Assembly (NCBI RefSeq): GCF_029767755.1
Contig: NZ_JARUQS010000001.1
Span: forward strand, 868,001-932,000
DNA: 64,000 nucleotides
Direction of reading: 5' to 3'
DNA from: Thiomicrorhabdus sp. zzn3
Lineage (GTDB): Bacteria; Pseudomonadota; Gammaproteobacteria; Thiomicrospirales; Thiomicrospiraceae
Made by a program: the position numbers and the translations under genes. Under the pieces are notes generated by a model. The model had not been told where the DNA came from. It worked only from the letters and a program-made list of their open reading frames with translations, and made no database searches. Shown here one piece after another: positions 50,374 through 50,502 of this stretch (its first letter is position 1; each line of letters begins with the position of its first letter).

Positions 50374-50502
50374 CTAATCACGATACTGGTCGCACTTAAA
50401 ATGGCGAAGTTTCAAGGCGGAGAAAAGGGAGTGTGCAATTTGCACATGACTGTTCTCCAACACAGAAGCTTCTCATTTAAGGCGTGAACGGTGCGTGATT
50501 AG
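50374..50502. repeat. 129-bp imperfect palindrome between purB and roxA
   Basis: The ends are CTAATCACG (50374-50382) and CGTGATTAG (50494-50502). Moving inward, matched blocks in register are CTTAAAATG / CATTTAAG, GAAGTTTC / GAAGCTTC, GGAGAA / TTCTCC, and a centre GTGCAA-T-TTGCAC around 50439. The right end includes the purB stop codon. It could fold as one long hairpin in the purB 3' UTR. It may be a miniature transposable element or a dispersed palindromic repeat; it has no coding capacity. Confidence 0.8.

Follow-up and report, generated by a model that had tools for sequence, protein, structure and literature searches.

A probable ERIC-type mobile hairpin element at the purB stop codon of Thiomicrorhabdus sp. 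zzn3

The purB gene of Thiomicrorhabdus sp. zzn3 ends inside a 129-nt imperfect palindrome, which raises the question of what this structure is and how it came to lie on a stop codon. The window analyzed is a 64,000-nucleotide stretch of contig NZ_JARUQS010000001.1 (forward-strand positions 868,001 to 932,000), and coordinates are those of the window. A sequence-only reading had described matching 9-bp ends with complementary blocks in register, and folding agrees: positions 50374-50502 form one end-to-end rod, about 125-129 nt overall, with perfect 9-bp complementary ends (CTAATCACG/CGTGATTAG) and inner blocks in register. The + strand of the 129 nt has a minimum free energy of -59.3 kcal/mol, whereas shuffled versions average -29.3 (z -9.2) and none of 200 reached so low a value. 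The - strand folds more weakly (-40.6, z -4.7; again 0 of 200 shuffles). The same reading placed the purB stop codon in the right end, where it is indeed found, TAA being the complement of 50499-50501. Because TA occurs on both flanks, the element proper is taken as 50377-50499 plus one TA. An Rfam search of 49000-52000 gave two weak matches only, both under the gathering score. The features of the locus are the following.

50377-50499, + strand (best-folding strand, antisense to purB): hairpin element proper, ATCACG...CGTGAT, from the fold and the match to covariance model R2
50375-50376, no strand: left-edge TA, candidate target duplication, from the sequence compared with empty sites
50500-50501, no strand: right-edge TA, the first two letters of the purB stop on the - strand, from the sequence
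50411-50468, + strand: conserved apical domain (query 38-95), TTCAAGGC ... GGGAGTGTGCAATTTGCACATGAC ... AACACAGAAG, from BLAST core matches and alignments
50431-50447, + strand: apical stem-loop GTGTGCA-ATT-TGCACAT beside a GA/GA internal loop, from the fold
50499-51899, - strand: purB, the upstream gene, an open reading frame whose stop overlaps the element
50499-50501, - strand: purB stop TAA, its third letter being the element's first letter read on the - strand
about 50314-50345, - strand: intrinsic terminator after purB, a hairpin with a U-run, from the sequence; present also where the element is absent
49121-50290, - strand: co-directional downstream gene, an open reading frame, cupin/JmjC-like by eye

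Is the palindrome simply the purB terminator? A separate terminator had been proposed, and the hairpin with its U-run is where it was said to be. In two relatives, G017 and G020, the same hairpin lies directly 3' of purB, and G013 has one that resembles it. Since the terminator is separate, and is kept in relatives that lack the element, the terminator reading of the palindrome was rejected.

A BLAST search of its own genome finds the window copy only, which taken alone would suggest a single-copy sequence with no counterpart and no conserved pairing. This is not the case. Against 58 genomes (its own included) BLAST gave a match at E<=1 in 29, the better ones mostly on query positions 38-95 and the weakest probably due to chance; 14 BLAST loci and the window copy share the same rod fold. 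A covariance model built from 12 of these (R1) has 10 matches in the own genome at E<=0.01, representing 9 places, with one opposite-strand reading set aside; three of these places overlap at C1:80.5-80.9 kb. At E<=0.1 R1 matched 40 of the 58 genomes, the own genome included, with 55 matches in G034 and at least 59 in G045, where 59 candidates were scored. A second model (R2) was built from 69 copies, no ERIC (see below) among them. It matches the window at 50373-50502 with 99 bits, its sole match there up to E=1. At E<=0.001, and with the own genome included, R2 matched 56 of 274 genomes of the class (46 of 221 genera) and 63 of 299 genomes of the phylum, 55 of the latter outside the class and 46 of those in one family; 11-12 candidates were scored per genome, so that matches per genome are lower bounds in these scans. 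A distant blastn search of a plasmid collection gave no match to the element. By both models, then, the element is dispersed and multi-copy, as expected of an ERIC-type superfamily. Two or more adjacent or overlapping matches stand in a row at L012, L044 and L055.

The pairing is conserved. RNAalifold predicted 37 pairs from the 69 copies, 35 of them with at least one two-sided change, so that the check for covariation came out positive. In the stored structure of 36 pairs, 90.9% of cells in the 69 copies pair (69.4% in shuffles), two-sided changes occur in 34 of the 36 pairs (26.0 in shuffles) and the covariation score is 0.625, against 0.217 in shuffles and at most 0.167 in slid versions; the alignment was fitted to its own structure and the copies are related, so these controls are guides rather than probabilities and the pair counts lean toward structure. 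Helix 6, the apical stem-loop, is paired in 98.3% of cells. The conserved letters lie around the apex (TTCAAGGC, GGGAG...TGACC and AAC..AGAA), and the outer arms keep their complementarity through wide sequence divergence.

The two strands are not equivalent. The query strand folds better in all 15 of the first loci and in 50 of 54 rows of a wider set, the exceptions being L051 and L055 (both from the own genome), the second copy in L048 and one in L043. The 69 aligned rows hold 299 G-T cells and 55 A-C cells; row by row, G-T is the more frequent in 65, the less frequent in 1 and equal to A-C in 3. Such a G-T excess would not arise in a structure maintained only as double-stranded DNA, and the hairpin thus appears to be selected, or moved, as a single strand with a polarity antisense to the preceding gene. 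Complementarity might also be kept by template-switch copying between the arms at replication, with no selection on structure. Such copying would account for two-sided changes at a single locus, as at purB in G015 and G021, where the arms (0.77 similar; core 0.91) differ yet stay paired. By itself, however, it leaves unexplained both the excess of G-T over A-C on one strand and the conserved unpaired letters of the core, and we regard it as unlikely.

The element has a preferred site. Of 54 copies sampled in the genus outside G029, 47 carry a gene stop at the right edge and none at the left; the 54 include orthologous sites (purB, dnaN and others) and are not 54 independent insertions. In G029 the right edge carries a stop in 8 of 13 copies and the left in none, whereas G034 has 2 of 9 on each side and G045 1 of 18 on each side. 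The loci behind these counts are 40 entries picked from 74 matches, plus two E. coli ERICs; opposite-strand readings, duplicates, several second copies and weak matches were left out, and from 60 fetched stretches L065, L079, L086, L105 and L114 were dropped (one duplicate, four too short). Use of stop codons in one orientation, a mark of the ERIC-type superfamily, was absent from the sequence-only reading, as was ERIC as the closest kind. A same-type element also stands at the stop of a putative dnaN (MPMRL*, by eye) in L003, L006 and L007, from three genomes, with arms that differ and compensate. Target duplication holds in part: at purB there is TA on both sides and there are relatives with empty sites, but an automatic left-edge search gave TA at the paired position for only 16 of 48 copies, the commonest dinucleotide and far from all, so that TA duplication is not taken as general. 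Three of the stops among those 48 copies are TGA, unexplained by a pure TA target.

How the element reached purB can be approached through the relatives. A purB match was found in 38 of 40 genomes, the own genome included. Of the 22 genus genomes in which purB matches over its full length, 9 have the element exactly at the purB stop and 13 lack it, and the empty sites include those of the close relatives G017, G020 and G013 (91-92% PurB identity). In these three the purB stop has the same terminator, or one like it, no more than a few tens of bases downstream. Judged from these sequences, insertion between the purB stop and the terminator would be the simplest reading. Presence is scattered on the purB tree; G000, with the element, is sister to G020, without it. 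Similarity of the element also disagrees with that of the gene: the arms are 0.99 similar between G008 and G015 (purB 0.86) and 0.48 similar between G008 and G009 (purB 0.88). The scatter and the mismatch point to repeated insertion, transfer or conversion at the purB stop codon as the likely history. On the same two grounds, a single old purB insertion inherited vertically is of unclear fit.

For relatives of the element in three genomes a mover can be suggested. IS66 elements have GTAA ends and make 8-bp duplications. Of 40 copies from G045, G034 and G029, 26 have ends like GTAAC and 8-bp direct repeats, with no more than one mismatch in each; 50 shuffles that swapped right flanks between copies gave a mean of 0.12 such copies and never more than 1 of 40. 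The GTAAC-ended copies have a fixed right end, and their lengths cluster at 121-122, 142-143 and 152-155 bp. IS66 genes (PF03050) are present in G029 and share their terminal inverted repeat with the GTAAC-ended copies; an end with GTAACTAC/TTCAG lies nearby in 4 of 6 IS66 loci of that genome. In G045 the sequence GTAACTAYTCAG occurs exactly 155 times, 84 of them forward and 71 reverse (none for the reversed pattern used as control), and 16 among the matches listed lie about 105-125 bases inside contig starts. Beside one GTAACTAYTCAG copy in G045 (L341), a contig ends in a 37-aa gene end that is 73% identical over 33 aa to the G029 IS66 transposases and that matched no Pfam family. The ends, the duplications and the shared terminal repeat together indicate that IS66 transposases very probably move the GTAAC-ended relatives. 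Three G045 copies (L344, L345, L346) have a hairpin enlarged by internal sequence and bounded by the same IS66-type ends, and two short G045 elements (L348, L349) have GTAACTACTCAG ends on both sides of a related but different hairpin.

The whole family, the window copy included, might then be an IS66-family MITE, as the duplications on 26 of 40 copies, the terminal repeat shared with the G029 genes and the IS66-like gene end of G045 would suggest. The window copy, however, ends in ATCACG/CGTGAT with TA and has neither a GTAA end nor an 8-bp duplication. PF03050 was not found in searches of the own genome, G045, G034, G000, G008 and G030, and the absence from the own genome and from G034 speaks against IS66 throughout. 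Placement at a stop edge, rare in G045 (1 of 18), is the rule in the genus (47 of 54). There is at most a small chance that the IS66 explanation extends to the window copy.

Alternatively, the palindrome may be a cis-acting RNA of purB (an attenuator, a 3' stabilizer or an sRNA) that formed in place and does not move. Its arms vary between species at purB yet remain paired, as in G015 and G021, and G-U pairs are abundant, both as such an RNA would have it. But the same element follows many other genes, has 55 and at least 59 matches in G034 and G045, is missing at purB in 13 of 22 genus members that have the full gene, carries 8-bp duplications on copies elsewhere and folds better antisense to purB, all of which makes a resident RNA improbable.

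The palindrome is thus best described as, with good probability, an ERIC-type mobile element of the non-autonomous kind (a MITE), present as an old copy inserted at the purB stop, homologous to ERIC and distinct from ERIC proper. The likeness that the sequence-only reading drew, to a miniature inverted-repeat element or a large dispersed palindromic repeat, gains support from the other copies, which covariance models recover in the own genome and in relatives, from the flanking TA with the empty sites and from covariation. Among the findings that count against this main reading are that the element at purB fails to follow the purB tree and that its best-folding strand is not that of the purB message.

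The link to ERIC draws on the covariance models. E. coli ERICs align to R1 over the whole length and in register with 14-15 bits, and to R2 with 18-20 bits (E 0.06-0.18, a modest score); against the link, core-only matches score about as high with R2. In 40.7 kb of E. coli DNA, chosen for its two ERICs, these two were the only R2 matches up to E=10. Searching whole genomes with R2 at E<=1 yielded 7 Serratia, 5 Klebsiella and 3 Pectobacterium matches, in genomes picked because of core-pattern hits. Of 12 enterobacterial R2 matches fetched, 8 match E. coli ERIC by blastn (Serratia 5 of 5, Klebsiella 2 of 4, Pectobacterium 1 of 3). Three of those without a blastn match (L315, L322, L326) belong to another enterobacterial family, one of shorter hairpins (about 108 nt; Klebsiella and Pectobacterium) with the same GGAG-stem-TGA core; L333 is the fourth.

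ERIC loci also behave like the window element. They were drawn from loci preselected by the core pattern, 80 of 117 stretches being listed. Among the matches listed, 40 enterobacterial loci, L234 and L266 included, all match E. coli ERIC by blastn, 24 of them over at least 90 nt; other enterobacterial core-pattern loci lacking a full-length R2 match are outside this count. The same strand as in the window element has the lower folding energy in 40 of 40. At the right edge, 18 of 29 genes have their stop within -10 to +12 nt; at the left edge 4 of 27 do. A shared core and helix register is thus recovered by a model that contained no ERIC, and homology of the window element to ERIC is supported at the level of these structure models. 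At the nucleotide level the window element has no similarity to the ERIC consensus. E. coli ERIC DNA matches none of the 274 class genomes, that of the window element included, at E<=1e-4 (no genome with a known match was among the 274), and the window element is therefore filed as ERIC-type and not as ERIC. No report of an ERIC-type element outside Enterobacteriaceae and Vibrionaceae appeared in the titles and abstract beginnings searched, which is weak evidence of absence as few subscription journals were covered; a search for IS66 MITEs likewise found nothing.

Hairpins with the same core extend further still. Among the matches listed, again preselected by the core pattern, they occur at L257, L238, L245, L237, L199, L201 and L230, in Cryomorpha ignava (Bacteroidota), a Chitinophaga MAG, Sulfurospirillum cavolei, a Sulfurovum MAG, a Clostridia MAG and Sporosarcina, although the MAGs may be misbinned. 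Several also share the letters AAGGC and AACG..GA. When whole genomes were searched with R2 at E<=1, the Chitinophaga MAG had 51 matches, the Clostridia MAG 7, Cryomorpha 5 and the two Campylobacterota 2 and 1, but two Sporosarcina genomes and Siminovitchia had none. A core-bearing hairpin of Sporosarcina jiandibaonis (L230:6385-6516) ends immediately ahead of a putative 16S rRNA start (by eye), and another, at L252, adjoins a tRNA-like sequence.

The window element is ordinary in kind and unusual in reach. ERIC is the namesake of a widely used typing method. A tentative proposal, which we think possible but would not yet bet on, makes ERIC a single branch of a superfamily that is ancient and pan-bacterial and consists of hairpin elements acting as single strands, with one conserved apical recognition core on one strand. 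Its members would spread as single-stranded DNA or RNA, preferring stop codons in one orientation, by a novel enzyme, and in some lineages would have been captured by IS66 transposases. If ERIC is a branch of a structure-defined family that spans dozens of genera, a family-wide comparison becomes possible, and could tell which core letters never vary, which of the strands is important and why copies fall on stop codons. In addition, a repeat that BLAST sees as single-copy can belong to a large dispersed family, so that many bacterial genomes may hold unannotated ones.

For the purB locus a sequence of steps may be proposed. The element, about 125 bp, is a single long hairpin whose apical core is conserved and whose arms change fast while compensating one another. 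The target of insertion would have been the TA within the stop codon of purB, with the element supplying the third letter of the stop, a step that the sequence and the empty sites support. The element now forms part of the purB 3' region, between stop and terminator. If co-transcribed with purB, its RNA would fold as a hairpin with the stop codon in its base; because the base contains the stop codon, terminating ribosomes would open it. An ERIC in Yersinia is reported to be co-transcribed and to alter mRNA decay through RNase E (PMC2229807, PMC10969869), ERICs at the 3' ends of Yersinia genes can uncover an RNase E site and so reduce message levels (PMC10969869), and orientation is described as crucial for the effect (PMC2229807). 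By analogy, an opened hairpin base could alter the decay of the purB message, and the window element seems to be positioned to affect purB as the Yersinia ERIC does its gene.

Four known systems bear comparison. IS66-family MITEs share GTAAC ends and 8-bp duplications with the relatives in G045, G034 and G029; the window copy has neither, and its genome gave no PF03050 match. Integron attC sites are likewise hairpins after a stop codon whose better-folding strand is antisense to the gene, but a folded single-strand recombination site of that type is highly improbable here, since the two ends lack core boxes (outer ends CTAATCACGA and GCGTGATTAG, compared by eye), the conserved part is the apex and not, as in attC, the base, and the neighbors are purB and, by eye, dnaN rather than cassette genes. 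REP and GTAG- and CGTC-tagged repeats are also dispersed palindromes between genes, given as 20-40 bp (PMC3733652) as against about 125-129 here. ERIC (enterobacterial repetitive intergenic consensus, also IRU or RU-1), the closest, is a palindrome of about 127 bp, a length the window element shares; the cores match in the same register (GGAG, short stem, TGAC; AACGCA), and TA is reported at ERIC termini (PMC2229807) as it is found at the window element's edges. The differences are that the arms are unrelated, with no BLAST-level similarity between E. coli ERIC and the window element, and that kin of the window element occur far outside Enterobacteriaceae and Vibrionaceae, the host families named for ERIC in PMC10969869, an RU-1 variant having been reported in Vibrio (PMC2759123).
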